From contig PHCC01000008.1 of NCBI GenBank assembly GCA_002842215.1, positions 1 through 64,000 of the forward strand: a stretch of DNA of 64,000 bases, read 5' to 3'. A model generated the notes under the pieces. That model did no database searches and was not told the DNA's origin. It was given only the letters and a program-made list of their open reading frames with translations. This document shows, piece by piece, positions 2,183 through 45,151 of this stretch. The stretch is from Betaproteobacteria bacterium HGW-Betaproteobacteria-9. GTDB lineage: Bacteria > Pseudomonadota > Gammaproteobacteria > Burkholderiales > Burkholderiaceae_C. Positions within the stretch are counted from its first letter, which is position 1. Every line of letters starts with the position of its first letter. A program made the translations under genes and the position numbers.

Positions 2183-3703
<1,521 letters not shown>

Positions 3704-3938: not shown

Positions 3939-4334
3939 ATGGTTGAAAAAGTCATTGCGACGCCGGCCGCGGTCGAGCTGATCGAATTCCTCAAAACGAA
4001 GCACGGCCCCGAGCTCATGTTTCACCAGTCGGGCGGCTGCTGCGACAACAGCGCGGCCAACTGCTACCTGCCCGGCGAGATCACCATGGGCGCGGGCGAC
4101 GTGTACCTGGGCGATGTCGGCGGTTGCCCGTTCTACATCGGCAAGGCGCAGTACGCCACCTGGCGCCACACGCAGCTCATCATCGACGTGATCGAAGGCC
4201 ACGGCGGCACCTTCTCGCTCGAAGGGCCGGAGGGCAAGGCGTTTCACACGCGCTCGCGCGTGTTCAGCGAAGCCGAGATGGCCGAGCTCGACGCCGAAGA
4301 TCGGGCCCGAGGGGACGCGGCGGCGCCCCGTTGA
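3939..4334 (+). CDS. DUF779 protein, aldehyde dehydrogenase partner
   Basis: This 131-residue soluble protein belongs to DUF779, a family found beside NAD aldehyde dehydrogenases and of uncertain function. The Cys-rich stretch HQSGGCCDNSAANCY (about 29-43) and the later GGCPFY segment look suited to metal binding, but no ligand set is established. The start is the ATG at 3939, preceded by AAGGAGACAGAC; the longer ORF in the track runs into the repeat and is not expected to be translated. About 235 bp separate it from the dehydrogenase. Confidence 0.8.
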   Translation: MVEKVIATPAAVELIEFLKTKHGPELMFHQSGGCCDNSAANCYLPGEITMGAGDVYLGDVGGCPFYIGKAQYATWRHTQLIIDVIEGHGGTFSLEGPEGKAFHTRSRVFSEAEMAELDAEDRARGDAAAPR

Positions 4335-4409: not shown

Positions 4410-4424
4410 TGGCATAAAACTTGT
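4410..4424 (+). promoter_or_regulatory. Weak sigma-54-like element upstream of the TonB receptor
   Basis: TGGCATAAAACTTGT has the -24 TGGCA and the correct spacing, but GT at -12 instead of GC. It sits about 80 bp before the receptor start. The AT-rich bases around it could equally contain a sigma-70 promoter, so the call is tentative. Confidence 0.3.
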
Positions 4425-4504
4425 ATATGGGATGCATGTTTTAGAAGAACCCGGCCATGCCAGCGCCGATGGCGGACACCACCACCCCACGACAGGAGAC
4501 ACAC

Positions 4505-6604
4505 ATGAACCCCCTCAACACCCTGCGATGCACACCCCTGACGGCGGCCATGGCCCTGGCCTGGGCGGCAGCACCCATCGCCACCAGCGCCCAGACCCTT
4601 TCGGAGGTGGTGGTCACCGCCAACCGGACCGAACAACAGAGCTTTGACGCGCCCGCCGCCATCCAGGCCGTGGGCCGCGAGACCATCGAGGCCGCCGGGC
4701 CGCAGGTCAACCTGTCGGAAGCCATCAACCGCATTCCGGGCGTCACGGTGCTCAACCGCCAGAACTACGCGCAAGACCTGCAGCTCTCCATCCGCGGCTC
4801 GGGTTCGCGCGCGCCGTTCGGCATCCGCGGCGCACGCCTCATCGTGGATGGCATCCCCGCCACCATGCCCGACGGCCAGGGCCAGGCCTCCACCATCAGC
4901 CTGCCGTCGGCCGAGCGCATCGAGGTGCTGCGCGGTCCGCTGGCGCAGCTGTACGGCAATTCGTCGGCCGGGGTGCTGCAGGTGTTCACCGCCGACGGCC
5001 CCGAGCGGCCCGAGTTGCGCACGAGCGTGGACCTGGGCAGCGAAGGCCTGCGCCGCTACGGCCTGCAGGCCGCGGGGCAGAGCGGGGCGCTCAACTACGT
5101 GATCGACGTGAGCGACTTCCAGACGGATGGCTGGCGCGCCAACAGCGCGGCCGAGCGCCGGCACCTCAACGCCAAGCTGCGCTGGAAACTCAGCGAGCAG
5201 ACCCGCGTGACCCTGATGGGCAACGTGTTCGATCAGCCGGTTTCGGGCGACCCGCTGGGACTCACGCGCGAGCAGTTCGAAGCCGATCCGCGCCAGGCGG
5301 TGGCGAACTCCACGCTCTACCAGGCTGGCAAAGATGTGTCGCAGAGCCAGCTCGGCCTGGTGGTCGATCACCAACTGGACGCCGCCAGCAGCCTCACGGC
5401 GCGGGTCTACGCCGGCCAGCGCGATCTGGACAACCGCCTCTCCATCCCGCTGTTTGTGCAGACCGCGCCCACGGCGGCCGGTGGCGTCGTGCAGCTGGAC
5501 CGCAGCTACAGCGGGGCCGGCCTGCGCTACACGCGCCGCATCCCGGCTGGCGCCGGCCAGGTGCAGCTCAGCGCCGGGCTGGACCTGGACCGCATGAGCG
5601 AACAGCGCCGTGGCTACATCAACAACTTCGGTGTGCAGGGCGACCTCAAGCGCGACGAGGACGACAGCGTCAACAGCGCCGGCCTCTACACCCAGGCCGA
5701 CTGGGCCATCAACGAAGACTGGAGCGCGGTGGCCGGCCTGCGCCTGAACCGGGTGGACTTCCGTGTGAGGGACCACTTCATCAACGGGACCAACCCTGAC
5801 GACAGCGGCGAGGTCGACTTCAGCGCCACCAACCCGGTGCTGGGCATCACGCGCCACCTGAGCGCCGACACCAATATTTACGCCAACGTGGGCCGAGGAT
5901 TCGAGACGCCCACGCTCACCGAGATCGCCTACACCGCCGACGGCAGCGGCCCCAACCTGGGCTTGCAGTCGGCGCGCAGCACGCACATGGAGCTGGGGCT
6001 GAAGACGAAGCTGGCCGAAGGTCACCGCCTGGATGTGGCGCTGTTCCGCATCAACACCAGCGACGAGATCGTGGTGGCTTCCAGCAGCGGCGGCCGCACC
6101 ATCTACACCAACGCCGGCACCACCCGCCGCTCCGGCCTGGAGCTGGCCTACAGCGGACAGCTCGCGCCCGAGTGGAGCGCCCATGTGGCCCTGTCCACGC
6201 TGAGCGCGAAGTTCGCCGATGCCTTTACCAGCAGCAGTGGCGCCACGGTGGCCAAGGGCAACCGCATTCCCGGCACGGTGGACCGCGCGCTGTTTGCCGA
6301 GCTGGCCTGGCAGCCGCGCGCCGTGCCCGGCATGACGGCCGCGCTGGAGCTGGTGCACCAGGGCGGCATGGCGGTGGACGACCTCAACAGCGACCGCACC
6401 GAGGCCGCCACCCTGTTCAACCTGCGCGTGGGCTTCGAGCAGAAGTTCGGCGCCTGGAAGCTGCGCGAACAGCTGCGCGTGGACAACGTGGCCGACAAGG
6501 CCTACATCGGTTCGGTGATCGCCAACGACGGCAACCGCCGCTTCTTCGAGCCCGCGCCGGGTCGGCAGTGGGGTCTGGGCCTTTCAGCCACCTACACGTT
6601 CTGA
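4505..6604 (+). CDS. TonB-dependent outer membrane receptor, candidate lanthanide or cofactor receptor
   Basis: This is a 699-residue receptor. It has a signal peptide (about 1-28, ending in TSAQ), a TonB-box-like start SEVVVTANR, a plug domain (about 45-150, with SIRGSGSRAPFGIRG) and a beta-barrel ending in the aromatic signature LSATYTF. The start at 4505 follows AGGAGACACAC. Its substrate cannot be read from the sequence. The context is a Ped/Lut-type ABC system and a lanthanide-signature alcohol dehydrogenase, and in Methylorubrum the TonB receptor LutH of a similar cluster handles lanthanide uptake. A role in lanthanide, PQQ or copper uptake is therefore inferred. Confidence 0.85.
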   Translation: MNPLNTLRCTPLTAAMALAWAAAPIATSAQTLSEVVVTANRTEQQSFDAPAAIQAVGRETIEAAGPQVNLSEAINRIPGVTVLNRQNYAQDLQLSIRGSGSRAPFGIRGARLIVDGIPATMPDGQGQASTISLPSAERIEVLRGPLAQLYGNSSAGVLQVFTADGPERPELRTSVDLGSEGLRRYGLQAAGQSGALNYVIDVSDFQTDGWRANSAAERRHLNAKLRWKLSEQTRVTLMGNVFDQPVSGDPLGLTREQFEADPRQAVANSTLYQAGKDVSQSQLGLVVDHQLDAASSLTARVYAGQRDLDNRLSIPLFVQTAPTAAGGVVQLDRSYSGAGLRYTRRIPAGAGQVQLSAGLDLDRMSEQRRGYINNFGVQGDLKRDEDDSVNSAGLYTQADWAINEDWSAVAGLRLNRVDFRVRDHFINGTNPDDSGEVDFSATNPVLGITRHLSADTNIYANVGRGFETPTLTEIAYTADGSGPNLGLQSARSTHMELGLKTKLAEGHRLDVALFRINTSDEIVVASSSGGRTIYTNAGTTRRSGLELAYSGQLAPEWSAHVALSTLSAKFADAFTSSSGATVAKGNRIPGTVDRALFAELAWQPRAVPGMTAALELVHQGGMAVDDLNSDRTEAATLFNLRVGFEQKFGAWKLREQLRVDNVADKAYIGSVIANDGNRRFFEPAPGRQWGLGLSATYTF

Positions 6605-6671: not shown

Positions 6672-7412
6672 TCACAGCCCCGGCTTCTCCAGCGCGCGCA
6701 AGACTTCGGTCTGGAAATCGCCGCCCTGCGATGCCTGCATGAAGGCATCGATCGAACCGTCAAAACGCACCGTGCCCTGGTGCAGCAGCATCAGGCGGTC
6801 GGCGACCTTCACCTCTTCGATAAGGTGTGTGGCCCAGAGCACCGCCATACCGCGCGTCCGGCACAGGGCGCGCACGGTGTCGAGCAGGTGCTGGCGCGAG
6901 GCTGGGTCCAGGCCCACGGTGGCCTCGTCCATGAGCAGCACGGCCGGCTCGTGCAGCAGCGCTCGCACCAGTTCCACCTTGCGTCGCGTGCCGCCCGAGA
7001 GGCTGCGCACCACGGCCTTGGCCTGATCGCCCAGGCCCATGGCCGCCAGTCCGTCGGCGATGCGCTGTCTGGCCACCGCGCGCGGCAGGCCGTGCAGGTC
7101 GGTGTGGAACAGCAGGTTGGCCATCACCGAGAGGTCCATGTCGAGCGCGCTCTGCTGGAACACCACGCCCAGCGACGCCAGCGCGCGGCTGGGGTAGCGC
7201 TGCATGTCGTGACCCATCACCACGATCGTCCCCTGGTCGGGGCTGAACAGGCCGGTCAGCAACTGCAGCAGGGTGGACTTGCCGGCGCCATTGGGCCCCA
7301 GCAGGGCCAGCATCTCGCCGGCCTGCAGCGCCACGTTGACGCCCTTGAGCGCGGGTTTTCCGTTGTAGGCCTTGTGCAGGTTTTGCGCGGTCAACAGGCA
7401 GTTTTCGGGCAT
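6672..7412 (-). CDS. ABC transporter ATPase of the PQQ-alcohol dehydrogenase-associated system (PedB/LutE-like)
   Basis: This 246-residue ABC ATPase has Walker A GPNGAGKST, Q-loop FQQ, signature LSGGTRRK, Walker B LLMDEAT and switch His in WATH. It matches the ATPase family found with PQQ alcohol dehydrogenase clusters. The permease that should partner it is on the other strand at 10947-11804, and the binding-type proteins are at 8684-10965. The cluster is therefore split around the divergent promoter at 8515-8683. In Pseudomonas putida the PedA1A2BC homologue is linked to lanthanide acquisition. It lies 25 bp after the TctC-like gene and is probably cotranscribed with it. Confidence 0.88.
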   Translation of the reverse strand: MPENCLLTAQNLHKAYNGKPALKGVNVALQAGEMLALLGPNGAGKSTLLQLLTGLFSPDQGTIVVMGHDMQRYPSRALASLGVVFQQSALDMDLSVMANLLFHTDLHGLPRAVARQRIADGLAAMGLGDQAKAVVRSLSGGTRRKVELVRALLHEPAVLLMDEATVGLDPASRQHLLDTVRALCRTRGMAVLWATHLIEEVKVADRLMLLHQGTVRFDGSIDAFMQASQGGDFQTEVLRALEKPGL

Positions 7413-7437: not shown

Positions 7438-8514
7438 TCAGTTGACCGGGCGTGCCAGCAGGTTCATGCGTTTGAGCAGGCGCTTTTCGTGCTCCACCGT
7501 GGCCAGCACCGCCTGGCGGTAGTCGTGCGTGTTGAGGTAGTCCAGGCCCTGATCGTACTTGGCGATGGCCGCCTGGTGCCGCTCGCTGAACATGGCGCGG
7601 CGGAACACATCATGCAGTTTCTGCACCACCGCTTCGGGCGTGCCGCGCGGTGCGGCCAGGCCCCAGGGCGAGGTGTAGACCGCTTGCTCGTAGCCGAGCT
7701 CGCGCATCGTCGGCACCTCGGGCCAGCGTGGGCTGCGCTGCGCGCTGAAGGTGGCGAGCAGGCGCATCTGGCCGCGGTCCACCCAGGGGGCGAAACCGGT
7801 GGAATTGACGCCGGCCATGATCTGCGCGCCGGCGATCGCCAGCATCTGGTCGGCCGTGCCTTTGTAGGGCACGTGCACATAGCTCACGTTGTGGTTCAGC
7901 AAGACCTCTTCCATCGCCAGGTGGGCCGTGGTGCCGATGCCGGTGGAGCCGAGCACCAGCTCGCCCGGGTGCTTCTGGGCCCAGTCGACCAGGTCGGCCA
8001 GCGTCTTCCACGGGCTGCTCGTCGGCACCAGCACACCGAAGGTGACGCCCGAGACCTGCAGGATCGGGCTGAGATCCGCCACCGGGTCCCAGGGCACGTG
8101 GTTCATGAGCGCATGGCGGTACACCGTGATCGGCACCTGGCCGATGGTGTGGCCGTCGGGTTCGGCGGCCTTGAGCAGCGGCGCCACCTGCGTGCCCGCC
8201 GCCCCCGGTTTGTTGATGACCACGATGGGCTGGCCCAGCAGCGGCTCGGCCTCCTCGCACAGCACGCGCAGTGTCAGGTCGGTCTGGCCGCCCGCGGGCC
8301 AGGGCACGATGAGCTGCAGCGGTTTGGTTGGCCAGTTGGCGGTGTTGTTGCTGCCCGGCTGCGCCAGGGCGCGGGGCAGGGCGGATGTCAAAGCGAGCGA
8401 TGCGCCCAGGCTCATGAAGCCGCGCCGTGAAACCCCGATCGTGCAGTGCTGGAACGCATCAAGGGTTTTCCCTGTGCCATTTTTGAACGCTGGGCGTGAC
8501 GGTGTGTGTCTCAT
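7438..8514 (-). CDS. Periplasmic TctC/Bug-family solute-binding protein
   Basis: The 358-residue protein has an N-terminal twin-arginine-like signal (SRRGFMSLGASLALTSALPRALAQ) and a tripartite tricarboxylate receptor domain with PWPAGGQTDLTLR and PYKGTADQMLAI. Bug-family proteins bind small carboxylates or amides and are abundant in Burkholderiales. The ATG at 8514 is chosen because it keeps the twin-arginine region; the longer ORF lacks a plausible signal. Its position between the shared sigma-54 region and the ABC ATPase is unusual, because Bug proteins normally serve TctAB rather than ABC-2 systems. Confidence 0.82.
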   Translation of the reverse strand: MRHTPSRPAFKNGTGKTLDAFQHCTIGVSRRGFMSLGASLALTSALPRALAQPGSNNTANWPTKPLQLIVPWPAGGQTDLTLRVLCEEAEPLLGQPIVVINKPGAAGTQVAPLLKAAEPDGHTIGQVPITVYRHALMNHVPWDPVADLSPILQVSGVTFGVLVPTSSPWKTLADLVDWAQKHPGELVLGSTGIGTTAHLAMEEVLLNHNVSYVHVPYKGTADQMLAIAGAQIMAGVNSTGFAPWVDRGQMRLLATFSAQRSPRWPEVPTMRELGYEQAVYTSPWGLAAPRGTPEAVVQKLHDVFRRAMFSERHQAAIAKYDQGLDYLNTHDYRQAVLATVEHEKRLLKRMNLLARPVN

Positions 8515-8571
8515 GGGGCGGTGTTTGTGTCTCCAGCGCCCGGGAAAGCCCCGGGCACCGGTGGTTTTCAG

Positions 8572-8586
8572 GCAATTTCTGTTCCC
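8572..8586 (-). promoter_or_regulatory. Sigma-54 promoter candidate for the TctC-ATPase pair
   Basis: Read on the minus strand, GGGAACAGAAATTGC has GG and GC ten bases apart and a full TTGC at -12. It agrees with the site before the alcohol dehydrogenase (TGGCACAGAAGTTGC) at 12 of 15 positions. It lies back to back with the plus-strand site at 8594. Confidence 0.5.
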
Positions 8587-8593
8587 GTGCGCC

Positions 8594-8608
8594 TGGCACC
8601 GTTTTTGC
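8594..8608 (+). promoter_or_regulatory. Sigma-54 promoter for the beta-propeller operon
   Basis: TGGCACCGTTTTTGC, followed by A, matches the -24/-12 consensus TGGCACN5TTGCA at every invariant position. It is about 75 bp upstream of the ATG at 8684. Confidence 0.75.
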
Positions 8609-8683
8609 AGACCCCTCGTTTGCACGTCGACGTGCGCCGGACGAACAGCGTTCGCCGATACCCAACAAGACAGGAGACTTTTC

Positions 8684-9676
8684 ATGCCCCTTCGTGCCCC
8701 GATGGCTTCTGCCCTGCGCACCGTGTCACTCGCCGCAGCCGCCGCCTCGCTCGCCTTGTCTGCCCAGGCCCAGGGTGCTGGCAAGGTTTATGTGTCCAGC
8801 GAGAAGGACAACAAGATCTATGTCTTCGACACCCAGGGTGAGCGCACCGGCGCCATCGACGTGTGCAAGCGTCCGCGCGACATGCGCTTCAGTGGCGACG
8901 GACAGCAGATCCTCGTGATCTGTGGCGACAGCAACGCCATGGGCCTGGTCGATGTGGCCACGGGCAAGCTGGCCGGCACGGTGCCCCTGGGCGACAGCCC
9001 CGAGATGTTCGACCTCAGCCCCGACGGCAAGACCGCGTACGTGTCGATCGAAGACGAGAACGTGGTGGCCGCCTACGACATCGGCACGAAGAAGGCGGTG
9101 TTCGAGGTCAAGACCGGTGGTGAACCCGAAGGCGTGCTGGTCACGCCCGACGGCAAGACGGCCTATGTCACGTCCGAGGTGGCCAACGTGGTCCACGTGA
9201 TCGACCTCGGCACGAAGAAGGTCAGCAAGAACATCAAGGTCGGCAAACGCCCGCGCCGCTTTGTGCTCTCGCCCGATGGCGCCGAACTCTGGGTCACCAA
9301 CGAGCTGGACGCGACCGTCAGCGTGGTCGACACCAAGACCCACACCGAGAAGCAGAAGATCAAGTTCGAGGTGAGGGGCATGCGCCAGGCCGACATCACA
9401 CCCGTGGGCATGACCATCAGCCCGGACGGCAAGAGCATCTGGGTCGGGTTGGGCAAGGCCAACCATGTGGCGCAGATCGACGTGGCCACCAAGGCGGTGA
9501 AGAGCCAGATCCTGGTCGGCAAGCGCGCCTGGGGCATGGGCTTCGCGCCCGACGGCAAGACGCTGTACGTGGCCAATGGACTGTCGGACGACATGACGCT
9601 GGTGGACGCTGCCAGTGGCAAGGCCATCAAGACGGTGCCGGCCGGTCGGGTGCCGCATTCGATCCTGGTGAAATGA
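8684..9676 (+). CDS. Periplasmic YVTN beta-propeller protein of the PQQ alcohol oxidation system (PedA2-like)
   Basis: This 330-residue exported protein has a signal peptide (about 1-30, ending in LSAQAQ) and about seven YVTN/NHL-type repeats, for example SPDGKTAYVSIEDENVVAAYD and APDGKTLYVANGLSDDM. It matches the beta-propeller family that accompanies PQQ-dependent catabolism and the Ped ABC system; biochemical function is unproven. The start has AGGAG eight bases upstream. The stop overlaps the next ATG (ATGA), showing translational coupling. It follows a strong -24/-12 promoter. Confidence 0.85.
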   Translation: MPLRAPMASALRTVSLAAAAASLALSAQAQGAGKVYVSSEKDNKIYVFDTQGERTGAIDVCKRPRDMRFSGDGQQILVICGDSNAMGLVDVATGKLAGTVPLGDSPEMFDLSPDGKTAYVSIEDENVVAAYDIGTKKAVFEVKTGGEPEGVLVTPDGKTAYVTSEVANVVHVIDLGTKKVSKNIKVGKRPRRFVLSPDGAELWVTNELDATVSVVDTKTHTEKQKIKFEVRGMRQADITPVGMTISPDGKSIWVGLGKANHVAQIDVATKAVKSQILVGKRAWGMGFAPDGKTLYVANGLSDDMTLVDAASGKAIKTVPAGRVPHSILVK

Positions 9677-10965
9677 CCCACCCCCGTCGCTTGCCCACTT
9701 CGTTGGGCCGCTCCGCCCTTCAAGGGGCAATGCCTGCGGCCTGGCGAAGCCCGTTCCGCGGCATTCTGGGTTGGGGTGCCCTGCGCGCTGCCGGGTTGGC
9801 GCTGCTGGGGGTTTCGGGCTTTCTTGCATTGCCGGCTTTCGCGGCCACCAAGATCACCATCGCGGTGGTGTCGCTGGACGGTGATCCGCGCCACGCGCCG
9901 CGGCGCATGGAGAAGGCCTACCCGGGCCACCCGACCGGGCGCGCCGTCGACGGCGTGAAGCTGGCGGCGGAGGATTCGGCGTTTGAGCTGGACGCGGCCG
10001 GGCTGGAGCTGGTGGTGAAGGATGTGGTGCTGCTCAACGCGGCTGCGCTGCCCAAGGCGCTGGCCGAGCTGAAGACTTTGAAGGTGCAGCATGTGGTGGC
10101 CGATCTTCCGCTGCCCGAGCTGCGCGCCCTGGTGCAGGCCGCGCCTGCTGCACTGGGCGGCGCCATCGTGTTCAACGCCGCGCTGGACGACGACAGTCTG
10201 CGCGGCGCCCAGTGTGCCGCCCACCTGCTGCACACCGTCCCCAGCCGCGCCATGCTCGGCGACGCGCTGGCCCAGTACCTCGCCGCGCGCAACTGGCGCA
10301 AGGCGCTGCTGTTGCAGGGTCCGTTGCCCGGCGACGCGCTGATGACCGAGGCCTTCAACCGCTCGGCCAAACGCTTTGGCATCAAGGTCGTGGCGCAGAA
10401 GCCGTTCAAGCTCACCGGCGACCCGCGCGAACGCGACCTCGGCAACACGCGCCTGCTCACCGGCGACCGCGAACACGAGGTGGTGGCGGTGATGGACAGC
10501 GACGGCGAGTTCGCGCGTTTGCTGCCCTACGCCACGCAGTGGCCGCGCCCGGTGGTCGGTGCCAACGGCCTGGTGGCCACGGCCTGGCACCCGCAGTGGG
10601 AGCGGTACGGCGGCCCGCAGCTCACGCGCCGCTTTGTCAAGCTGGTGGACCGGTCGATGCAGGGCAACGACTGGGCGGCCTGGGCCGCAGGCCGCGCGGT
10701 GGCCACCGTGCTGGCCGAGAACCCGAAGGCGCCGGTGGCGCAGCAGCTCAAGGCGCTGCGCGGCGGCAGCACCACACTCGACGGCTTCAAGGGCCGCACC
10801 CTGTCATTCCGTGCCTGGGACGGTCAGCTGCGCCAGCCGCTGTTCCTGAGCCATGTCGACGGCGTGGTTGGCAACGCGCCGCTCGAAGGCGTGTTGCACC
10901 CTAAGGAGGTGCTCGATACGCTGGGGTTCGATGAACAGGAAAGTGCATGCAAATCGCGCCCGTGA
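9673..10965 (+). CDS. ABC transporter periplasmic binding protein of the PQQ alcohol dehydrogenase system (PedA1-like)
   Basis: The 430-residue protein belongs to the branched-chain-amino-acid-type periplasmic binding fold associated with PQQ alcohol dehydrogenase loci. The mature part starts near ATKITIAVVSLDGDPRHAPRRM. The signal peptide (LALLGVSGFLALPAFAA) begins only at about residue 41. The first 34 codons coincide with a family-1 repeat, so the protein has either a repeat-derived N-terminal extension or a later start, for example a TTG just before ALLGVSG. The ATGA overlap favours 9673. It overlaps the permease gene by 19 bases. Confidence 0.82.
   Translation: MTHPRRLPTSLGRSALQGAMPAAWRSPFRGILGWGALRAAGLALLGVSGFLALPAFAATKITIAVVSLDGDPRHAPRRMEKAYPGHPTGRAVDGVKLAAEDSAFELDAAGLELVVKDVVLLNAAALPKALAELKTLKVQHVVADLPLPELRALVQAAPAALGGAIVFNAALDDDSLRGAQCAAHLLHTVPSRAMLGDALAQYLAARNWRKALLLQGPLPGDALMTEAFNRSAKRFGIKVVAQKPFKLTGDPRERDLGNTRLLTGDREHEVVAVMDSDGEFARLLPYATQWPRPVVGANGLVATAWHPQWERYGGPQLTRRFVKLVDRSMQGNDWAAWAAGRAVATVLAENPKAPVAQQLKALRGGSTTLDGFKGRTLSFRAWDGQLRQPLFLSHVDGVVGNAPLEGVLHPKEVLDTLGFDEQESACKSRP
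9677..9775 (+). repeat. Family 1 repeat copy B inside the 5' end of a coding sequence
   Basis: The sequence from ACCCACCCCC to GGCATTCTGGGTTGGGG closely matches the intergenic copy at 32919-33013. It lies within the first codons of the binding-protein gene. Confidence 0.75.
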
Positions 10966-11804
10966 ACGCTTCCGTGATGCCGCTCGCAGCGTCCTCGCTG
11001 CCCATGCACCTGCTGCGCGCCTTGCGCGCGGTGGTGGGGCGCGAACTCAATCGCTTCCTGCGCCAGCCCACGCGCCTGGGCTCGGCGCTGGTGCGGCCGC
11101 TGCTGTGGTTCGTGGTGTTTTCGGCCGGTTTCAACAACGTGTTCGGCGTGGCCATCGTGCCGCCCTACGAGACCTACATCGAATACAAGGCCTACATGGT
11201 GCCCGGCCTGCTCGGCATGGTGGCCCTGTTCAACGGCATGCAGAGCTCGCTCTCCATGGTGTACGACCGCGAGATGGGCGTGATGCGCCTGCTGCTCACC
11301 GCGCCGCTGGCGCGCGGCTGGCTGCTGGCCTTCAAGCTGCTCGCAGGCACCTGCCTCTCGGTGCTGCAGATGGTGGTGTTCCTCGCCATCGCCTGGGCCT
11401 TTGGCGTGGAGGTGCCGCTGGCCAACCTGCCGGGCCTGCTGGTCGCCATGGCCTGCGGCGCCACCATGCTCGCCGCGCTCGGGCTGATGCTCTCGGTGTA
11501 CGTGAAGCAGCTGGAGAACTTCGCTGGCACGATGAACTTCGTGATCTTCCCGATGTTTTTCATCAGCCCCGCGCTGTACCCGCTGTGGAAGCTCGAAGAG
11601 TCGGGCGCGTGGTGGTTGCTCAAGCTGGCGGAGTGGAACCCGTTCACCCACGCGGTCGAGGCCATGCGCTATGCGCTGGTGGGGCAGTTCACGGCGCTCT
11701 CGTGGTCGGTGGTGCTTGGATGTGGCGCGGTATTTTTTGTGGCGGCGCTCTGGGGCTACGACCCCCAGCGCGGCTGGGTCAAAAGCAAGGGAGGCGGAGG
11801 ATGA
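10947..11804 (+). CDS. ABC-2 type permease of the PQQ alcohol oxidation system (PedC/LutF-like)
   Basis: This 285-residue inner membrane protein has about six hydrophobic helices and the ABC-2 pattern (RPLLWFVVFSAGF, then GLLGMVALFNGMQSS, and the late FFISPALYPLW loop typical of NodJ-like exporters). It matches the permease family found with PQQ alcohol dehydrogenase clusters. The ABC-2 fold is more usual for export, so the transport direction is not settled by sequence. It overlaps its neighbours on both sides by 19 and 4 bases, so the operon is tight. Confidence 0.88.
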   Translation: MQIAPVNASVMPLAASSLPMHLLRALRAVVGRELNRFLRQPTRLGSALVRPLLWFVVFSAGFNNVFGVAIVPPYETYIEYKAYMVPGLLGMVALFNGMQSSLSMVYDREMGVMRLLLTAPLARGWLLAFKLLAGTCLSVLQMVVFLAIAWAFGVEVPLANLPGLLVAMACGATMLAALGLMLSVYVKQLENFAGTMNFVIFPMFFISPALYPLWKLEESGAWWLLKLAEWNPFTHAVEAMRYALVGQFTALSWSVVLGCGAVFFVAALWGYDPQRGWVKSKGGGG

Positions 11805-13587: not shown

Positions 13588-13888
13588 TCCGCGTGCAGCT
13601 GTTGCAACGTGGTTGCGACATTTCTGAACACTGTCACAAGGGTGTCTCCTCACACGGTTCGGGTTTGGCGCAATTGCAGCCACCCGGGACCACTGGCGTG
13701 GCCTTGCGGGGGTATTCCGATCGGTGAAAACCCTAGGGTTTGACGGGTGCCAGGTGCTGGCACAGAAGTTGCCATTTCTTGCTCGCGTGCTTGCCCCGAC
13801 TGGAGAGGGACAACACCAGCGAGCAGCTGGGGCGGCACGGCCAGTTCCCCCAAGCCATCAACTTCACAAACGAGCAGGAGACCACCCA
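13588..13888 (+). promoter_or_regulatory. Regulatory region of the PQQ alcohol dehydrogenase
   Basis: This 301-bp gap contains an interrupted inverted repeat TGTTGCAAC-GTG-GTTGCGACA (13600-13620, one mismatch), which is a possible enhancer site. It also has GGGTATTCC (13710-13718) and the perfect palindrome AAACCCTAGGGTTT (13728-13741). The sigma-54 promoter (separate entry) follows. The inverted repeat is about 140 bp before the promoter, a usual distance for a sigma-54 activator site. Confidence 0.5.
13758..13772 (+). promoter_or_regulatory. Sigma-54 promoter for the PQQ alcohol dehydrogenase
   Basis: TGGCACAGAAGTTGC matches the -24/-12 consensus at all invariant positions, with ten bases between GG and GC. 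It lies about 117 bp upstream of the GTG start. Confidence 0.75.
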
Positions 13889-15610
13889 GTGAAACGCACT
13901 CTATTGAGCCTTTTGGTCATGGCCGCCACGGCCCACGTCAGCGCCCAGGGCGTGACCGACGCGATGATCGCGGACGACGCCAAGACCCCCGACAACGTGC
14001 TCAGCTGGGGCATTGGCACCCAGGGCCAGCGCCACTCGCCGCTGACCGGCATCAACGAAAAAACCATCAGCAAGCTGGTGCCCGTGTGGTCCATGTCTTT
14101 CGGTGGTGAAAAGCAGCGCGGCCAGCAGTCGCAGCCGCTGGTGAACAACGGCAAGATGTTCGTCACCGCGTCCTACTCACGCATCTACGCGGTCGACACC
14201 AAGACCGGCAAGAAGCTCTGGAAGTACGAGCACCGCCTGCCCGAGGGCATCATGCCCTGCTGCGACGTGATCAACCGCGGCGCCGCGCTGTACGACAACC
14301 TCGTCATCTTCGGCACGCTGGACGCCCAGCTCGTGGCGCTCGACCAGGAAACCGGCAAGGTGGTGTGGCGCGAGAAGATCGACGACTACTCCGCTGGCTA
14401 CAGCTACACCGCCGCACCCCTGATCGCCGAAGGCCTGCTCATGACCGGTGTCTCCGGTGGTGAGTTCGGCGTGGTTGGCCGCGTCGAAGCGCGCGACCCC
14501 AAGACCGGCAAGATGGTCTGGACCCGCCCCGTGGTCGAAGGCCACATGGGCTACAAGGACGGCAAGGAAAACGGCATCACCGGCACCACCAACGCTTCGT
14601 GGCCCGGCGAAACCTGGAAGACCGGCGGCGCTGCCACCTGGCTGGGCGGCAGCTACGATCCCAAGACCAAGCTGGCCTACTTCGGCACCGGCAACCCCGG
14701 CCCCTGGAACAGCCATGTGCGCAAGGGCGACAACCTGTACTCGGCCTCCACCGTCGCCATCGACGTGAAGACCGGCCAGATCAAGTGGCACTACCAGACC
14801 ACGCCGAACGACGGCTGGGACTACGACGGCGTGAACGAGTTCATCACCTTCGACATGGACGGCAAGCGCGTCGGTGCCAAGGCCGACCGCAACGGCTTCT
14901 TCTACGTGATGGACGCCGAGAACGGCAAGCTGCTCAACGCCTTTCCCTTCGTGAAGAAGGTGACCTGGGCCACCGGCATCGACCTCAAGACCGGTCGCCC
15001 GAACTTCGACCCGGCCAACCGCCCGGGCGACCCGACCGCCGCCGGTGGCGACGGTGCCAAGGGCAAGTCGGTGTTCTCGGCGCCGGGTTTCCTGGGTGGC
15101 AAGAACCAGATGCCCATGGCCTACAGCCCCAAGACCGGCCTGTTCTACGTGCCCACCAACGAATGGGGCATGGAGATCTGGAACGAGCCCATCACCTACA
15201 AGAAGGGCGCCGCCTACCTGGGCGCGGGTTTCACCATCAAGCCGCTGTTTGACGACCACATCGGATCGCTGCGCGCCATCAACCCCAAGACCGGCAAGGT
15301 CGAGTGGGAAGTCAAGAACGAAGCCCCGCTCTGGGGTGGTGTGCTGACCGCGGGCGACCTGGTGTTCTGGGGCACGCCTGAGGGCTACCTCAAGGCCGCC
15401 GACGCCAAGACCGGCAAGGTGGTGTGGCAGTTCCAGACCGGCTCCGGCGTGGTGGCGCCTCCCATCACCTGGACCGAAGGCGGCGAGCAGTACGTGAGCG
15501 TGGTCTCCGGCTGGGGCGGCGCGGTTCCCCTGTGGGGCGGTGAAGTGGCCAAGAAGGTCAACTTCCTCGAACAGGGCGGCTCGGTCTGGACCTTCAAACT
15601 CATGAAGTGA
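13889..15610 (+). CDS. PQQ-dependent alcohol dehydrogenase with lanthanide signature (methanol/ethanol family, PedH/ExaF/XoxF-like)
   Basis: This 573-residue periplasmic eight-bladed quinoprotein oxidises primary alcohols and passes electrons to cytochrome c. The signal peptide ends at VSAQ (20). Visible residues are the vicinal disulfide Cys124-Cys125 (MPCCDV), metal ligands Glu192 (GGEFG) and Asn269 (GTGNP), and catalytic Asp311 in WDYDGVNE. The extra Asp313, two residues later, is the hallmark of lanthanide-dependent members; calcium enzymes have Ala, Ser or Thr there. No cytochrome domain is fused. The GTG start is set by AGGAG at 13876. The substrate is not resolved by sequence. Confidence 0.93.
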
Positions 15611-23287: not shown

Positions 23288-24427
23288 TCAAGCGGCGGGA
23301 TGCAGGTGGCGCGACTCCGCATCGCTGCGGAACACGATGGGGATGCTGCGTCGCGTGGGTGCCTGCTTCACGATCTGCACCACCTTCTGATGGTGCGGCG
23401 ACTTGCTGCACACCGGGTCGGCCTCGGTGGCGTCGCCGGTGATCAGGAAGGCCTGGCAGCGGCAGCCGCCGAAGTCCTTGTGGCGCTCGTCGCAGGAGCG
23501 GCAGGGCGCCTTCATCCAGCTGTCGCCGCGGAAGGCGTTGAAGGCGGTGCTGCGCTGCCAGATCTCGGCGATCGGCGTGTCTTTCACGTTGGGCAGTTGC
23601 AGGCCCGGCAGGTCGCGCGCGTTGTGGCAGGGCATGGCCAGGCCGTCGGGCGCGATGGAGAGGAACACCGAGCCCCAGCCGTTCATGCAGGCTTTGGGCC
23701 GCTCCTCAAAATAGTCGGGCACCACGAACAGCACGCGGCATTTGGGGCCGGGCTTGCCGTCCTGTTCAGCGCGGAAGGCATTCACCATGGCCTCGGCTTG
23801 CACCAGTTCCTCGCGCGTGGGCATGAGGTGATCGCGGTTGACCCAGGCCCAGCCGTAGTACTGCGTGTTGGCGAGTTCCAGGTACTCGGCTTCCAGCGCC
23901 ACCGCCATCTCGATGATCTTGTCCACGTGGGGTAGGTTGTGGCGGTGCAGCACGCAGTTCATCACCATCGGCCAGTCGTGTGCCTTGATGAGCTTGGCGA
24001 CGCGCTGCTTGAGTTCGAAGGTCTTGGTGTGGCTCAGAAAATCGTTCAGCTCCTTGGTGGAATCCTGGAACGAGAGCTGCACGTGGTCGAGCCCGGCGTC
24101 CTTCAGCTTCTGCGCGCGAGTCGGCGTGAGGCCTACGCCGGAGGTGATGAGGTTGGTGTAGTAGCCCAGGCGGTGGGCTTCCTGCACCAGCTCTTCCAGA
24201 TCGTCGCGCAGCAGCGGCTCGCCGCCCGAAAAACCGAGCTGTGCCGCGCCGAGCTTGCGCGCCTGGGTCATCACGTCGACCCATTGCGCGGTGTCCATCT
24301 CGTCCTTGAGGTGCGCGTGCTGCGTGGGGTTGTAGCAAAACACGCAGTGCAGCGGGCACTTGTAGGTCAGCTCGGCCAGCAGCCACAGGGGCTGACCGAC
24401 GGTGGGGGTTTCAGTCAATCCAGCCAC
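23288..24427 (-). CDS. pqqE: PqqE, radical SAM peptide cyclase of PQQ synthesis
   Basis: The 379-residue radical SAM enzyme forms the C-C crosslink between Glu and Tyr of PqqA. It has the CxxxCxxC cluster motif (KCPLHCVFC), the GGEP motif and the C-terminal SPASM-type cysteines (KACMNGWGS, PCRSCDERHKDFGGCRC). The GTG at 24427 overlaps pqqD by 17 bases and gives the usual family length; the longer ORF start lies inside pqqD. Confidence 0.95.
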   Translation of the reverse strand: MAGLTETPTVGQPLWLLAELTYKCPLHCVFCYNPTQHAHLKDEMDTAQWVDVMTQARKLGAAQLGFSGGEPLLRDDLEELVQEAHRLGYYTNLITSGVGLTPTRAQKLKDAGLDHVQLSFQDSTKELNDFLSHTKTFELKQRVAKLIKAHDWPMVMNCVLHRHNLPHVDKIIEMAVALEAEYLELANTQYYGWAWVNRDHLMPTREELVQAEAMVNAFRAEQDGKPGPKCRVLFVVPDYFEERPKACMNGWGSVFLSIAPDGLAMPCHNARDLPGLQLPNVKDTPIAEIWQRSTAFNAFRGDSWMKAPCRSCDERHKDFGGCRCQAFLITGDATEADPVCSKSPHHQKVVQIVKQAPTRRSIPIVFRSDAESRHLHPAA

Positions 24428-24674
24428 GGCGTTGTCCCTCTTCAAGAAGTGCTTGCACCTCGGGCGCAATGCCTTGCGCGTTGAACGCGGCTTCCAGCTC
24501 GGCAACGATGGCATCGACCGTTCGCTCGCCGTCGCAGCGCTGCAGGATTTCGGCCGCCGACGGGTTGAGCTGCACCATGCCCTCCGGGTACAGCAGCACC
24601 CAGCGGCTCTGCGCTTCCTCGTACTGCAGACGGAAGCGGCGCGAGAGCTTGGGTTGACTCGGTAACGTACTCAT
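24411..24674 (-). CDS. pqqD: PqqD, PqqA-binding chaperone
   Basis: This 87-residue protein of the RRE fold delivers PqqA to PqqE. It is recognised from LSRRFRLQYEEAQSRWVLLYPEG and LNPSAAEILQRCDGERT. It overlaps pqqE and is separated from pqqC by a family-1 repeat of about 110 bp, an unusual break in this operon. Confidence 0.95.
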   Translation of the reverse strand: MSTLPSQPKLSRRFRLQYEEAQSRWVLLYPEGMVQLNPSAAEILQRCDGERTVDAIVAELEAAFNAQGIAPEVQALLEEGQRRGWID

Positions 24675-24691
24675 CGCAACTTCGGAGCGCG

Positions 24692-24783
24692 TGCCGAGCC
24701 CAGCACACGCCGAGGAACCGGCTTTGCCGGGCCAAAGGCGTGGTCCCCCTGGGGGGAAGACGCGAAGCGGCGCAGGGTGGCGT
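24692..24783 (-). repeat. Family 1 repeat copy C, between pqqC and pqqD
   Basis: The reverse-orientation copy contains GGAACCGGCTTTGCCGGGCC and GGTCCCCCTGGGGGGAAG. It fills almost the whole gap between two genes of one operon. Confidence 0.75.
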
Positions 24784-24786
24784 TCA

Positions 24787-25518
24787 TCATTGACACGCTT
24801 TTTCTATGGCGTCCAGCATGGTCCACAAAATGTCCAGCTTGAACTGCAGGATGTCCAGCGCATGGTGTTGCGCTTCACGGGTATTGAAGTGCGACAGCGT
24901 GACCTGCAGGCCGTGTTCCACGTCGCGGGTGGCGAGTGGGATGCGGCTGCGGAAATAGGCCAGGCCACTGGCCTCGATCCAGGGGTAGTGCGTGGGCCAG
25001 GTGGCCAGGCGGTCCTTGTGGATCTGCGGCGCGAACATCTCTGTGAGCGAGGAGCACACGGCTTCCTGCCAGGGCGCCTTGGCCGCGAAGTTCACATAGG
25101 CGTCGCACGCAAAACGCACCGCGGGCACCACGCCCTGCAAAGACCACAGGTCTTCGCGCGATATGCCGACCGCTTCCCCCAGCCGTGTCCAGGCTTCAAT
25201 GCCGCCTGCGGCCGAGCCCTCGTAGTCGCCATGGCCGTCGTGGTCGAGGATGCGTTCGATCCACAGCCGGCGGTGTGCGCGGTCCGGCATGTTCGCCAGG
25301 ATGGCGGCGTCCTTGCGCGGGATGCAGATCTGGTAATAAAAGCGGTTGGCCACCCAGCAGCGGATCTCGTCGGGTGTGCAGCCGCCCGAGTTCATGCGCA
25401 CGTTGAACGGGTGGTGGATGTGGTAGCTGCGGCCCTTGTCGCGCAGCTGGGCCTCGAAGGCTTCGGGGCTCCAGGCGGGCAGGTGGCTGTGATTGCGGAT
25501 GGCTTGGGCGATTTCCAT
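24787..25518 (-). CDS. pqqC: PqqC, pyrroloquinoline-quinone synthase
   Basis: The 243-residue oxidase catalyses the last, oxygen-dependent ring closure and oxidation. Landmarks are [13 protein letters not shown], the ILDHDGHGD segment and YFRSRIP. It starts 11 bp after pqqB ends. The length is close to the 230-250 usual for the family. Confidence 0.96.
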
Positions 25519-25529
25519 GACCGGGCATT

Positions 25530-26447
25530 TCAGAACGTGATCTCCATACCGTCGTGGGCAACTTCGATGCCGTGCGCCGTGAGTTCGGCGCGTTCGTCGG
25601 AGTCTTCCACCAGCATGGGGTTGGTGTTGTTGATGTGGATGAGGATCTTGCGGATGCCGGCGGGCAGCTGGTCGAGCTGTTCAATCATCCCGCCCGGGCC
25701 GCTTTGCGGCAGGTGGCCCATGTCGAGCGCGGCCTTCGTCGAAAGGCCAAGGCGCTGCATTTCGTCGTGGGTCCAGAAGGTGCCGTCAATCAGCACCACG
25801 GCGCACCCGCTCATGAGCTCGATCAGCGCGGAGGTGACCTCCGCCAGGCCCGGCGCGTAGAACGCGCGCTGCCCGGTTGCGGGGTTGGTGATCAGCAGGC
25901 CGATGTTGTCACCCGGGCGCGGGTTGCCGCGGAAAGGCGAATACGGGGGCGGCTTGGACGAGAGCGACACGGTCTGAACCTGCAGGCCTGGCAGGGCGGG
26001 CACGTTCACCGTGCTGCCGTCGATGGGCAGCGCCTGGCGTTGCACGCCGCAGTAGTGCGACAGGATGCCGGTGATCGGGAAGCCGCTGGAGATGTCGGAG
26101 AACACCTCGGGCGTGGCGAGCAGGGGCAGTGGTGTCTGGCGTTCGCGCAGCATCAGCAGGCCGGTGACGTGGTCGATCTGCGCGTCCATCAGCAGCACGG
26201 CGGCGATGCCGCTGTCGCGGATGGCGCGGGCCGGCTGCAGCTCGGGCGCTTCGCGGATCTGGGTCAGGATGTCTGGCGAGGCGTTGACGAGCAGCCAGTC
26301 GCTGCCGTCGGCGCTGATGGCGATGGACGACTGTGTGCGCGCACGCGCCTGGAGCTTGCCACGGCGAAAGCCGTCGCAGTTGGGGCAGTTGCAGTTCCAT
26401 TGCGGGAACCCACCGCCAGCCGATGAACCGAGAACCCGGATGCGCAT
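25530..26447 (-). CDS. pqqB: PqqB, PQQ biosynthesis hydroxylase of the metallo-beta-lactamase fold
   Basis: The 305-residue protein starts with the family signature [24 protein letters not shown]. It has the altered metal motif [11 protein letters not shown] in place of HxHxDH, and IHINNTNP near the end. PqqB is reported to hydroxylate the crosslinked Tyr of the PqqA-derived intermediate. It lies about 90 bp after pqqA, with a hairpin in the gap. Confidence 0.96.
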
Positions 26448-26484
26448 GATCGAACCTGTTGGTCGTTGGAGGTGGGGTGAAGAA

Positions 26485-26516
26485 GAAAGCGCACGGAGGT
26501 GGGGCCGTGCGCTTTC
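26485..26516 (-). terminator. Hairpin between pqqA and pqqB, probable attenuator
   Basis: GAAAGCGCACG and CGTGCGCTTTC form a perfect 11-bp stem. On the minus strand it is followed by TTCTTC. It probably reduces read-through so that pqqA is expressed above the enzyme genes. Confidence 0.65.
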
Positions 26517-26535
26517 AGGTCAAAGCCGCCGCCGT

Positions 26536-26610
26536 TCAGCGGTTGGCGATGTACATCGTGATTTCAAAACCGAAACGCAGGTCGGTGAAGGCGGGGGTGG
26601 TCCATTGCAT
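26536..26610 (-). CDS. pqqA: PqqA, precursor peptide of PQQ
   Basis: The peptide is too short for the ORF track. The 24 residues [20 protein letters not shown] followed by IANR include the conserved Glu16 and Tyr20 that become the PQQ backbone. GGAGACAGACT precedes the ATG. It is first in the pqqABCDE order and is followed by an attenuator hairpin. Confidence 0.97.
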
Positions 26611-26688: not shown

Positions 26689-27807
26689 ATGAACAGCAAT
26701 AACGATGCCACGAAAGACCAACCTAGGGATACCCCTGAGTCGGTGCTTCCCGCGGGTCGGCGCAGCGCCTGGCCAGCGCCAGCCTACCTGTCTGTCGGAC
26801 GCGGTCACCGCTTGGCATTTCGCACCGTGGGCAACCCAGATGGCGAGCCCTGGCTGCTGGTGCACGGTGGCCCCGGCAGCAGTTGCCAGCCGGGCATGCT
26901 CGCGCCCCTGGACCTCACGCGCCAGTGGGCGGTTGCGCCCGACCAACGCGGCTGTGGAGCGAGCCGCCCCAGAGGGAAAACCACGGCCAGCACCACCCAC
27001 GCGCTGGTGGCCGATATGGAGGCCTTGCGGTGCCACCTCGGCATCAAGCGCTGGTCGCTGCTGGCGGGCTCGTGGGGAACGGTGGTGGCACTGGCCTATG
27101 CACGAGCCCACCCGCAGCGGGTGCGGCGCCTGGTGTTGCGCGGCGCGTTTGCGCTCAGCCGGCGCGAGGTGGGCGGGCTGCTGCAGCCTTCTCGCCGGGT
27201 GCAACAAATCCTCGGCCGCGAGGCTGCATGGCCCGCCGCGCCGGGTGTGTCACTGCCCGCGACACTGGCCCGGCTGAGACAACTGCTTCAAAGTGGAACA
27301 CCCGGTGTTGCAGGCCTGCGCGTGTCGCGCCGCTGGGCCTTGCTGGAGTCGGCCTGCGTCTCGAACGGCATGCGCCGGGCGCTGCGGCAGGCGGTGACGC
27401 AGGCCTCGGCGAAACAGGTGGCGGCGATGCGGCGCGACTGGGCCGCGCTGCGGCGCCGACAGCGAAAAGCACAGGCGAGCCGCCACCGCCTCGCCCCGCG
27501 CCCGTCCGACCGGGCGGCGCTGCACAAATTCCGCATCCAGGCGCACTACCTGCAGCACCGCGGCTTTGTGCGGCCCGGTGCGCTCGACGGCGCCGTGACG
27601 GGCCTGGCGCGCCTGGGTGTGCCGGTGGACTGGGTGCACGGCGCCTGCGACGCCGTCTGCCCGCCCGCCAACAGCCGCGCCTGGGCCGCTGTGGGCCGTC
27701 GTCTGGCGCCGCAGCAGGTCACGCTGAGTGAGCCCTTGAGCGGCCACCTGGGCGCCGAGTCGGGCATGCTCGCGGCTTTGCGCGCGGTGGTGCGGAGACC
27801 GGGATGA
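26689..27807 (+). CDS. Alpha/beta hydrolase of the proline iminopeptidase type
   Basis: The 372-residue protein has the HGGPG oxyanion motif, nucleophile Ser in LLAGSWGTVV and a late His in LSGHLG, typical of prolyl aminopeptidase-like S33 hydrolases. The middle part is unusually rich in Arg. The start is uncertain: ATG 26644, ATG 26689 or GTG 26743. The last would clear the pqq promoter. Being divergent from pqqA, it could trim the PqqA peptide, a step whose peptidase (PqqF-like) is otherwise missing here. That is speculation. It overlaps the next gene by 4 bases. Confidence 0.72.
   Translation: MNSNNDATKDQPRDTPESVLPAGRRSAWPAPAYLSVGRGHRLAFRTVGNPDGEPWLLVHGGPGSSCQPGMLAPLDLTRQWAVAPDQRGCGASRPRGKTTASTTHALVADMEALRCHLGIKRWSLLAGSWGTVVALAYARAHPQRVRRLVLRGAFALSRREVGGLLQPSRRVQQILGREAAWPAAPGVSLPATLARLRQLLQSGTPGVAGLRVSRRWALLESACVSNGMRRALRQAVTQASAKQVAAMRRDWAALRRRQRKAQASRHRLAPRPSDRAALHKFRIQAHYLQHRGFVRPGALDGAVTGLARLGVPVDWVHGACDAVCPPANSRAWAAVGRRLAPQQVTLSEPLSGHLGAESGMLAALRAVVRRPG
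26696..26710 (-). promoter_or_regulatory. Sigma-54 promoter candidate for the pqq operon
   Basis: On the minus strand TGGCATCGTTATTGC, followed by T, has TGGCA at -24, TTGCT at -12 and exact spacing. It predicts a leader of roughly 75 bases before pqqA. Just upstream are CCTAGG and GGGATACCC, related to motifs before the alcohol dehydrogenase. The element overlaps the first codons of the divergent hydrolase ORF. Confidence 0.65.
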
Positions 27808-28973: not shown

Positions 28974-31139
28974 TTACAACGTCCCCGGAGGGAGCAGATC
29001 CTTCTTGCGGTAGATCGTGTTGCGGGAAACGCCCAGCGCCTTGGCCGCAGCCGATACGTTGCCCTTGTGCAGCCGCAGCATCTGCGCCATGGCACTCAGC
29101 GCCACGTCTTCGAGGCGCGTGCCTTCGGGCACCGTGGGTTCGGCCATTGGGGCGGTGTTGGGCACATCGGGCAGCGGCTGGGTCGGGGCTATCGCTCCCA
29201 TCAGGCGCGGCGGGATCGGGTTGGGCAGGCCGTGTTCCAGCTCCTCCATGAAGTCGTCAGGCAAATGGCTGAGTTCGATCACGCCCTGGCAGCCCACCAT
29301 GACCACAGCGGTGCGCAACAGGTTGTGCAACTGGCGGAAATTGCCCGGCCAGTGGTAGCGCTTGAAGATGTTCATGACCTCGGGCGAGATGCCGATCTGC
29401 GCGCCGTTTTCACACAAGGCTTTGAGGATCTTGCGCACGACCAACTCGAAATCGGAGCGCTCGCGCAGCGCCGGCAGCCGCACCACCAAGCCGTTGAGCC
29501 GGTAGTACAGGTCTTCGCGGAAGTCGCCGCGCGCGATCATGTCCTTGATGTTCTTGTGGGTCGCGCAGACCACAGCCACGTCCACGTCGACCTCCTTGCC
29601 CGCGCCCAGCGGGCTGACCCGGCGCTCCTGCAGCACGCGCAGCAGCCGCGCCTGCAGGTGCTTGGGCATGTCACCGATTTCGTCAAGGAACAGCGTGCCG
29701 CCGTGGGCCTGCAGGATCTTGCCGATGGCGCCCTTCTTGCGCGCACCGGTGAAGGCGCCTTCTTCGTAGCCGAACAACTCGGACTCGATCAGCGTCTCGG
29801 GAATCGATGCGCAGTTGACCGAAACGAAGGGCTGACCGGAACGGTCCGAGTCACCATGGATCGCCTGCGCGAGCAGGTCTTTGCCGGTGCCGGTTTCGCC
29901 CAGGATCATGACCGGGATGTCCTTGCCCGACACCATGCGCAACTTGTGGATCACCGACGACACCTGGGGGTCACCGGTGTCCAGGTATTGCAGCGATGAG
30001 AGCTGCGTGCGTTTGACGGGGGGTTTGGCCGGCGCGTGCGCTGCCGCGCCCTGACCCGTTTCCGCGGCGAAGGCCTGCGGTCCCTGGGCGGCATCTGGCC
30101 GGGCAGCCGACCACGGATGGGCCGTCTTGACCTTGACGCGGCACCACACCGAGACGCCGTTGTGCAGCACCAGCTGCTTGGGGTTGGGCATGGCGCCGCT
30201 GAACAGTTCGAACAGCGCCGAGATCGGGATGCCGAACAGCGAAGAAAAGGTGTGGGCCTTGAGCGCAGCGAAGGGCAGGCCGATCTGGAACTGCCCGCTG
30301 CGGTTGGCCGAGATGAAACGCCCCTCGGGCGAGAACACGGCGATGCCTTCGACCAGCGTGCCCAGAAACTCGGAGCGGGTGTGGAAGTGGATGCGGATCG
30401 CCTTCGGGAAGATGTCGGCGAACATGTGGTTCTCGATCATCTGCGCCGACATGCGCACCAGCGCCAGTGTGTGCTGGTGGAAGCTGCGGTGATCGCCGGT
30501 GACGTCGAGCGCGCCGATGACCTGGCCGTAAGGGTCAAAGATCGGCGCGGCGGAGCAGGTGAGGAATTTGTTGGCGTTCAGGTAGTGCTGGTTGCCGTGC
30601 ACCGTGAGCGCTTCTTCTTCGGTCAGCGCGGTGCCGATGGCGTTGGTGCCTTTGGTCTGCTCGGACCAGTCCATGCCGGGCGTGAGCGCCACGCGCGAGG
30701 CTTTTTCCAGAAAGTCGGTGTCGCCCAGCGAGTGCAGCACCATGCCGCGTGCCGAGGTCAGCAGCACCATGCTGTGGGTGTTGACGATCTGGTCGTACAG
30801 CGTCTCCATCACGGGGGCGGCGTGCTGGAAGAGAAAGCGGTTTTCGTCCAGCGCGTCGTTCAACACGCCGCGCGAAGGGCTGGAGAAGTCGGGTTCGGCC
30901 TGCGCCGTGATGCCATAGGCCTGCGAACGCTGGTGGGACTGGCCGATCAGGTCGGGGTTCGGGGAGGCGCCAGCTGGCGCAGCCCCGACGCGTCCTTCGT
31001 CGGGGCGCGTGTGGATGCCTGCACTCATGTCGTCTCCAGGGTCGGGCGGAAATCCCCCCCAGTAGTCCATGGCCCAGGGCGCATCGCACGGGGTCAGGAG
31101 GGGTGTTGTCTCGTCTGTGTCTTGTTGGTCTTGGCTCAT
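28974..31139 (-). CDS. AcoR-type sigma-54-dependent activator
   Basis: This 721-residue enhancer-binding protein has a variable N-terminus, a GAF-type sensor (about 100-235) and a possible PAS segment (255-335). The AAA+ domain has Walker A GETGTGKD (414-421), the sigma-54 contact loop GAFTGA (461-466) and Walker B LFLDEIGD. A Fis helix-turn-helix (NVSAAAKALGVSRNTIYRKKDLL) ends it. AcoR-like proteins activate -24/-12 promoters of alcohol, acetoin and aldehyde pathways. The ATG at 31139 has GAAGAGA upstream; the extra 39 codons in the track are unlikely. It is the only full sigma-54 activator in the window. Confidence 0.92.
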   Translation of the reverse strand: MSQDQQDTDETTPLLTPCDAPWAMDYWGGFPPDPGDDMSAGIHTRPDEGRVGAAPAGASPNPDLIGQSHQRSQAYGITAQAEPDFSSPSRGVLNDALDENRFLFQHAAPVMETLYDQIVNTHSMVLLTSARGMVLHSLGDTDFLEKASRVALTPGMDWSEQTKGTNAIGTALTEEEALTVHGNQHYLNANKFLTCSAAPIFDPYGQVIGALDVTGDHRSFHQHTLALVRMSAQMIENHMFADIFPKAIRIHFHTRSEFLGTLVEGIAVFSPEGRFISANRSGQFQIGLPFAALKAHTFSSLFGIPISALFELFSGAMPNPKQLVLHNGVSVWCRVKVKTAHPWSAARPDAAQGPQAFAAETGQGAAAHAPAKPPVKRTQLSSLQYLDTGDPQVSSVIHKLRMVSGKDIPVMILGETGTGKDLLAQAIHGDSDRSGQPFVSVNCASIPETLIESELFGYEEGAFTGARKKGAIGKILQAHGGTLFLDEIGDMPKHLQARLLRVLQERRVSPLGAGKEVDVDVAVVCATHKNIKDMIARGDFREDLYYRLNGLVVRLPALRERSDFELVVRKILKALCENGAQIGISPEVMNIFKRYHWPGNFRQLHNLLRTAVVMVGCQGVIELSHLPDDFMEELEHGLPNPIPPRLMGAIAPTQPLPDVPNTAPMAEPTVPEGTRLEDVALSAMAQMLRLHKGNVSAAAKALGVSRNTIYRKKDLLPPGTL

Positions 31140-44657: not shown

Positions 44658-44673
44658 GGTGTCGGCGCGTTGT

Positions 44674-45087: not shown

Positions 45088-45134
45088 GGGGCGTCCTTGC
45101 GTGAGGTGGTGAAAGGGATGGGGTGAATTTTAAT

Positions 45135-45151
45135 ATTCATTTTATATGAAT
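45135..45151. promoter_or_regulatory. NsrR-like palindrome upstream of cytochrome c5-nosX
   Basis: ATTCATTTTATATGAAT agrees with the NsrR consensus ATGYATTTNAAATRCAT at 14 of 17 positions. It lies about 29 bp downstream of the FNR box centre, where the -10 region is expected, consistent with repression. Confidence 0.6.

Follow-up and report, generated by a model that had tools for sequence, protein, structure and literature searches.

The closest described relative of the receptor studied here is PqqU (YncD, b1451) of Escherichia coli, whose gene lies beside yncE in an organism that is not known to make PQQ. PqqU receptors are defined by Tyr, Phe or Trp at position 99 together with Arg304 and Arg365 (E. 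coli numbering; Munder et al. 2025, PMC12124388). In four genomes of Burkholderiales, PqqU and the pqq operon are reported to be syntenic and to share their orientation (Munder et al. 2025, fig. S11, PMC12124388). Two further systems are related by their gene neighborhood. LutH of Methylorubrum extorquens and LutH-like proteins are TonB-dependent receptors near Lut/Ped-type ABC transporter clusters serving PQQ dehydrogenases, and the ped cluster of Pseudomonas putida (PedA1A2BC) combines a related type of ABC system with a PQQ dehydrogenase and accessory proteins. Regulation of the ped genes has been described via PedS2/PedR2 and other regulators (PMC6115532, PMC12997753); PqqU is absent from the text of the ped review (PMC12997753).

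The window (the whole 64-kb stretch of DNA analyzed here) contains a TonB-dependent receptor gene at positions 4505–6604 (Table 1). With a probability of roughly 93%, its product is a PQQ importer orthologous to E. coli PqqU. The assignment is based on sequence, signature residues, structure, phylogenetic tree and co-occurrence, all of which strongly favor PQQ; from the same lines we infer that the protein transports PQQ. The receptor extends an established family, and the proposed regulon is the less expected finding. The protein shares clade, fold and PQQ-contact residues with E. coli PqqU at about 40% identity, with Phe in place of Tyr99. Unlike in E. coli, however, the gene belongs to a supercluster of quinoprotein genes and pqqABCDE and is preceded by a sigma-54-like promoter. 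As in the Burkholderiales described by Munder et al., PqqU and PQQ synthesis are encoded in one region, but here about 17 kb separate pqqU from pqqABCDE, which is encoded on the other strand. The protein differs from LutH in clade and presumed ligand, and the promoters in the window look sigma-54-dependent, in contrast to the PedS2/PedR2-controlled ped cluster of P. putida.

Gene neighborhood of the receptor

The receptor gene was the sole match inside the 64-kb window in two whole-genome searches; no second receptor was found there. As stated in the initial annotation, it is convergent with the gene of a Ped/Lut-like ABC ATPase, which matches TIGR03864. The small ORF upstream of pqqU is presumably a DUF779 protein. 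Between the ATPase and propeller genes lies another ORF (7438–8784, minus strand) in a position retained in many related loci; we take its product to resemble a Bug/tripartite-tricarboxylate binding protein. Genes for SoxYZ-like and SoxH-like proteins are also found downstream of pqqU. The PQQ-dependent alcohol dehydrogenase carries a WDYDG motif, which is a mark of the lanthanide-type enzymes. The lanthanide context of the locus is real, but it is attributable to the dehydrogenase and probably to the ABC system, not to PqqU. Since the window holds a full set of pqq biosynthesis genes, the organism makes PQQ and, most likely, also imports it.

The YVTN propeller protein encoded near pqqU (8684–9676) and YncE, encoded beside E. 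coli pqqU (L269:4308-5369), are distant relatives with 27% identity over 178 residues. The presence of a propeller near PqqU in both genomes may reflect a shared role.

Table 1. Features of the window (positions in the 64-kb stretch)
Feature	Position	Strand	Remark
Sigma-54-like site of exaC	2106–2121
exaC-type acetaldehyde dehydrogenase	2183–3703	+	NF050026, above cut-off
Small ORF between exaC and pqqU	3939–4334	+	No NCBIfam match; gene order retained in relatives
Sigma-54-like -24/-12 element of pqqU	4410–4425	+	TGGCATAAAACTTGTA; about 80 bp before the ATG; two mismatches to TGGCACN5TTGCW
Ribosome-binding site of pqqU	4494–4499	+	AGGAGA, read from the sequence
pqqU, probable TonB-dependent PQQ importer	4505–6604	+	699 residues, ATG at 4505; homology, NCBIfam, signature residues, tree, AlphaFold2 fold
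Phe105 codon	4817–4819	+	Corresponds to Tyr99 of E. coli PqqU (ring stacking with PQQ); Phe lies within the published signature (PMC12124388)
Lys276 codon	5330–5332	+	Lys as in E. coli (Lys274) instead of the Glu proposed for metal co-transport
Arg306 codon	5420–5422	+	E. coli Arg304, PQQ carboxylate contact
Arg368 codon	5606–5608	+	E. coli Arg365, PQQ carboxylate contact
ABC ATPase, Ped/Lut-like, convergent with pqqU	6672–7412	-	TIGR03864 'PQQ_ABC_ATP', 309 bits (cut-off 302)
Sigma-54-like site of propeller/ABC operon	8594–8609
Operon: beta-propeller, ABC binding protein, permease	8684–11804	+	TIGR03866, TIGR03863, TIGR03861
Sigma-54-like site of PQQ dehydrogenase	13758–13773
PQQ-dependent alcohol dehydrogenase	13889–15610	+	TIGR03075, 756 bits; WDYDG motif
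pqqABCDE	23288–26610	-	Full set
pqqE	23288–24514	-
pqqD	24411–24674	-
pqqC	24787–25518	-
pqqB	25530–26447	-
pqqA	26536–26610	-
Sigma-54-like site of pqqA	26695–26710
Sigma-54-dependent activator	28974–31256	-	GAF/PAS, AAA+ Sigma54_activat, HTH_8; candidate cluster regulator

Sequence, PQQ-contact residues and predicted fold

The receptor comprises a Plug domain (Pfam, E = 4.7e-19) and a TonB_dep_Rec_b-barrel domain (5.6e-43). The top two hits of a PDB search were the PqqU/YncD structures 6v81 (3.6e-147) and 9c4o (6.3e-146), whereas the next receptor followed at 2.1e-12. Homology is full-length, with 41% identity to the sequence of the PqqU/YncD structure over 668 aligned residues. The top NCBIfam model was PqqU (NF041535) with 613 bits; its cut-off of 1200 bits, which the protein does not reach, is a naming threshold and not a biochemical feature.

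The PqqU signature is present as Phe105, Arg306 and Arg368. Equivalents of Lys274, Arg536, Gln84, Gln121 and Tyr481 of E. coli PqqU are retained as well. Nearly all of about 130 PqqU proteins of the family retain the same contact residues, and the signature was found in every one checked, wherever the position was covered. The residue at position 274 bears on the possibility that PQQ is imported as a complex with calcium or a lanthanide, so that the receptor would serve both cofactor and metal uptake. Metal co-binding has been modeled for PqqU proteins with Glu at this position (Munder et al. 2025, PMC12124388), and a lanthanide-type dehydrogenase is encoded nearby. The window protein and all family members checked, however, have Lys here, and in the E. 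coli structure Lys274 fills the place of the metal and PQQ is seen without one (PMC12124388). We therefore regard import of a PQQ–metal complex as very unlikely.

An AlphaFold2 model was calculated from the sequences of the window and of related loci, with the E. coli sequence left out (pLDDT 85.6, pTM 0.84). Its top fold match in the PDB was the cryo-EM complex of PqqU with PQQ (TM-scores 0.90/0.95, r.m.s.d. 1.8). FoxA and FecA matched less well (query TM-scores 0.77–0.79), and the folds of FhuA and OprC were likewise clearly more distant, OprC ranking 47th or lower (0.70–0.72).

Based on these results we propose the following mode of uptake. Free PQQ would bind on the outside of the cell in a pocket to which the plug contributes Gln90, Phe105 and Gln127 and the barrel and its loops contribute Lys276, Arg306, Arg368, Tyr476 and Arg531. 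TonB would then drive PQQ into the periplasm, where it could reach apo quinoprotein dehydrogenases such as the neighboring lanthanide-type alcohol dehydrogenase. As the organism itself makes PQQ, the role of PqqU would be to recapture home-made PQQ that has leaked and to take up PQQ released by neighbors.

Distribution in the family and relation to LutH

The survey covered 251 genomes of the family. It detected PqqU in 142 of them and PqqC in 60, while 114 have a PQQ dehydrogenase (TIGR03075 or TIGR03074) and 56 the Ped/Lut-type binding protein. PqqU is encoded in 55 of the 56 genomes that have a PQQ dehydrogenase and lack PqqC; the exception (G009) is 65% complete. With one genome per genus the count is 34 of 35. 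Nearly all dehydrogenase genomes without PqqU make PQQ, and the dehydrogenase is paired with PQQ synthesis, PqqU or both in 113 of 114 genomes. This near-perfect rule independently supports PQQ import by PqqU in bacteria other than E. coli. At 29 of 118 PqqU loci, an ORF for a PQQ dehydrogenase is found within 7 kb of pqqU. PqqU was present in all 29 quinoprotein genera without the Ped/Lut ABC system, compared with 27 of 34 genera with it. Its presence thus tracks the need for PQQ and not the ABC transporter.

PqqU is also encoded in 41 surveyed genomes that lack PqqC as well as any TIGR03075/TIGR03074 enzyme, so it is not bound to these dehydrogenases alone. These genomes may contain other PQQ enzymes or use PQQ in another way, a point likewise raised for some groups by Munder et al. 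(PMC12124388). One genome without PqqC (G231) encodes two divergent PqqU copies (C1:1742769-1744814 and C1:676584-678683), each near a PQQ dehydrogenase.

The initial annotation had suggested a lanthanide, a lanthanophore or PQQ as ligand and a phylogeny as a check. In our tree, all 24 PqqU sequences, including those from the window and from E. coli, form one clade (SH-aLRT support 100), apart from the ferric receptors and from a separate clade of 11 LutH-like receptors (support 100). E. coli references were taken from MG1655 (FhuA, FecA, FepA, CirA, BtuB and PqqU); the tree does not contain the OprC sequence. LutH references came from alphaproteobacterial-type Pseudomonadota clusters in which the genes for binding protein, propeller, ATPase, permease and receptor follow one another in this order; in some of them a lanmodulin-like gene adjoins the receptor. 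These references were assigned by gene order and homology. The tree is the result of a quick search and has some long branches, which are found among the non-PqqU receptors.

These data weigh against a LutH-like receptor for lanthanides or lanthanophores acting as the partner of the neighboring Ped/Lut-type ABC transporter. Such a role would fit the adjacent ABC cluster and WDYDG dehydrogenase, and receptors beside lut clusters with lanmodulin do exist in alphaproteobacteria. These receptors, however, and their betaproteobacterial homologs beside quinoprotein genes make up the separate clade. The window protein gives a weak, local match to a lanmodulin-adjacent receptor (51.6 bits), no LutH homolog was found in the source genome at E ≤ 1e-20, and three genomes (G142, G088 and G197) each encode both a LutH-like receptor and PqqU. 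Together with the independence of PqqU from the ABC system, this renders a lanthanide receptor highly improbable. Of the three suggested ligands PQQ is thus retained, and the example shows that proximity to a Ped/Lut-like cluster does not by itself make a receptor the metal receptor of that cluster. A ferric-siderophore, heme, B12 or copper receptor located here by accident is hardly credible: apart from general TonB-receptor similarity (siderophore-receptor model TIGR01783, 154 bits, under the cut-off of 223.5), the protein lies outside every E. coli iron and B12 receptor lineage, its fold matches to FecA, FoxA and OprC are clearly worse, and no Fur-box-like site was found upstream (a weak control, the genome's own siderophore-type receptor also being without a clear box), so that iron uptake, already doubted in the initial annotation, and copper uptake are not supported.

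LutH-like TonB receptors adjoin quinoprotein/Ped-like clusters in several betaproteobacteria (L037:2227-4707, L213:17820-20321, L187:15030-17348, L229:6491-8812, L246:13315-15666 and L268:2-2026). They are candidate lanthanide receptors of these bacteria and the appropriate comparison for PqqU. Another presumed betaproteobacterial LutH (L214) is not one, as it grouped with FecA in the tree.

Sigma-54-like promoters of the cluster

The sigma-54-like element upstream of pqqU had been noted before as weak. It is indeed present and better than that, being one of a pattern of five sites. The strict consensus TGGCACN5TTGCW, searched with two mismatches, is not enriched above chance in the window (46 observed, 47 expected), and our claim therefore relies on a narrower motif, together with its placement and its occurrence in relatives. 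TGGCAYN5TTGY occurs exactly five times in the 64 kb (0.83 expected; none of 100 shuffles reached five), always on the coding strand and upstream of exaC, pqqU, the propeller/ABC operon, the PQQ dehydrogenase and pqqA. The -12 part of the pqqU and exaC sites reads TTGT instead of TTGC. As this motif was relaxed from the consensus after the window had been seen, other genomes provide the fairer test.

In a congener (G209, L039), TGGCATAGAACTTGTA is found at the equivalent position upstream of pqqU, which together with the five-site set makes the pqqU element credible. Four of the motif sites are in place in this genome; the upstream region of exaC lies outside the sequence analyzed. In 80 related loci taken from other records, 85 of the 144 occurrences of the motif fall within 1.4% of the bases, just upstream of cluster genes, although a p-value for these loci overstates the case because they are related. 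The motif precedes 47 of 48 dehydrogenase, 23 of 62 propeller and 10 of 18 pqqU genes in these loci. Across the family it was found at 7 of 129 PqqU genes, ten times chance but few, which points to lineage-specific sigma-54 control, mainly in lineages with pqqU inside the cluster.

The window also encodes a sigma-54-dependent activator, which perhaps drives the five promoters. Homologs were detected in 10 of the 12 related genomes examined, many of them close to these quinoprotein genes. The five-site set and its recurrence in relatives suggest that a single sigma-54 regulon covers PQQ synthesis, PQQ uptake and quinoprotein oxidation. Judged from the motif pattern, pqqU, pqqABCDE, exaC, the dehydrogenase and the Ped/Lut-like ABC operon would probably be transcribed from sigma-54 promoters. 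More generally, in Hydrogenophaga-like betaproteobacteria a single sigma-54 regulon with a linked GAF-AAA+ activator might co-induce PQQ synthesis, PQQ import and the lanthanide-type alcohol dehydrogenase. The cells would then treat PQQ as a cofactor that they make themselves and also share, and relatives that have lost synthesis would retain PqqU as their only source. We consider the odds of this scenario to be about even. In a literature search, which was not exhaustive, no description of a sigma-54 regulon for quinoproteins and PQQ was found. The shared sigma-54-type promoters offer a directly testable model for coordinating the making and the scavenging of a cofactor.

Besides the alcohol-oxidation genes, the window contains an aldehyde ferredoxin oxidoreductase gene (35031–36878, plus strand). 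Enzymes of this type usually depend on tungsten. A nitrous-oxide reductase cluster with genes for the NosZ propeller, NosD, NosL and an ApbE-like protein lies at positions 43641–54412 on the minus strand.
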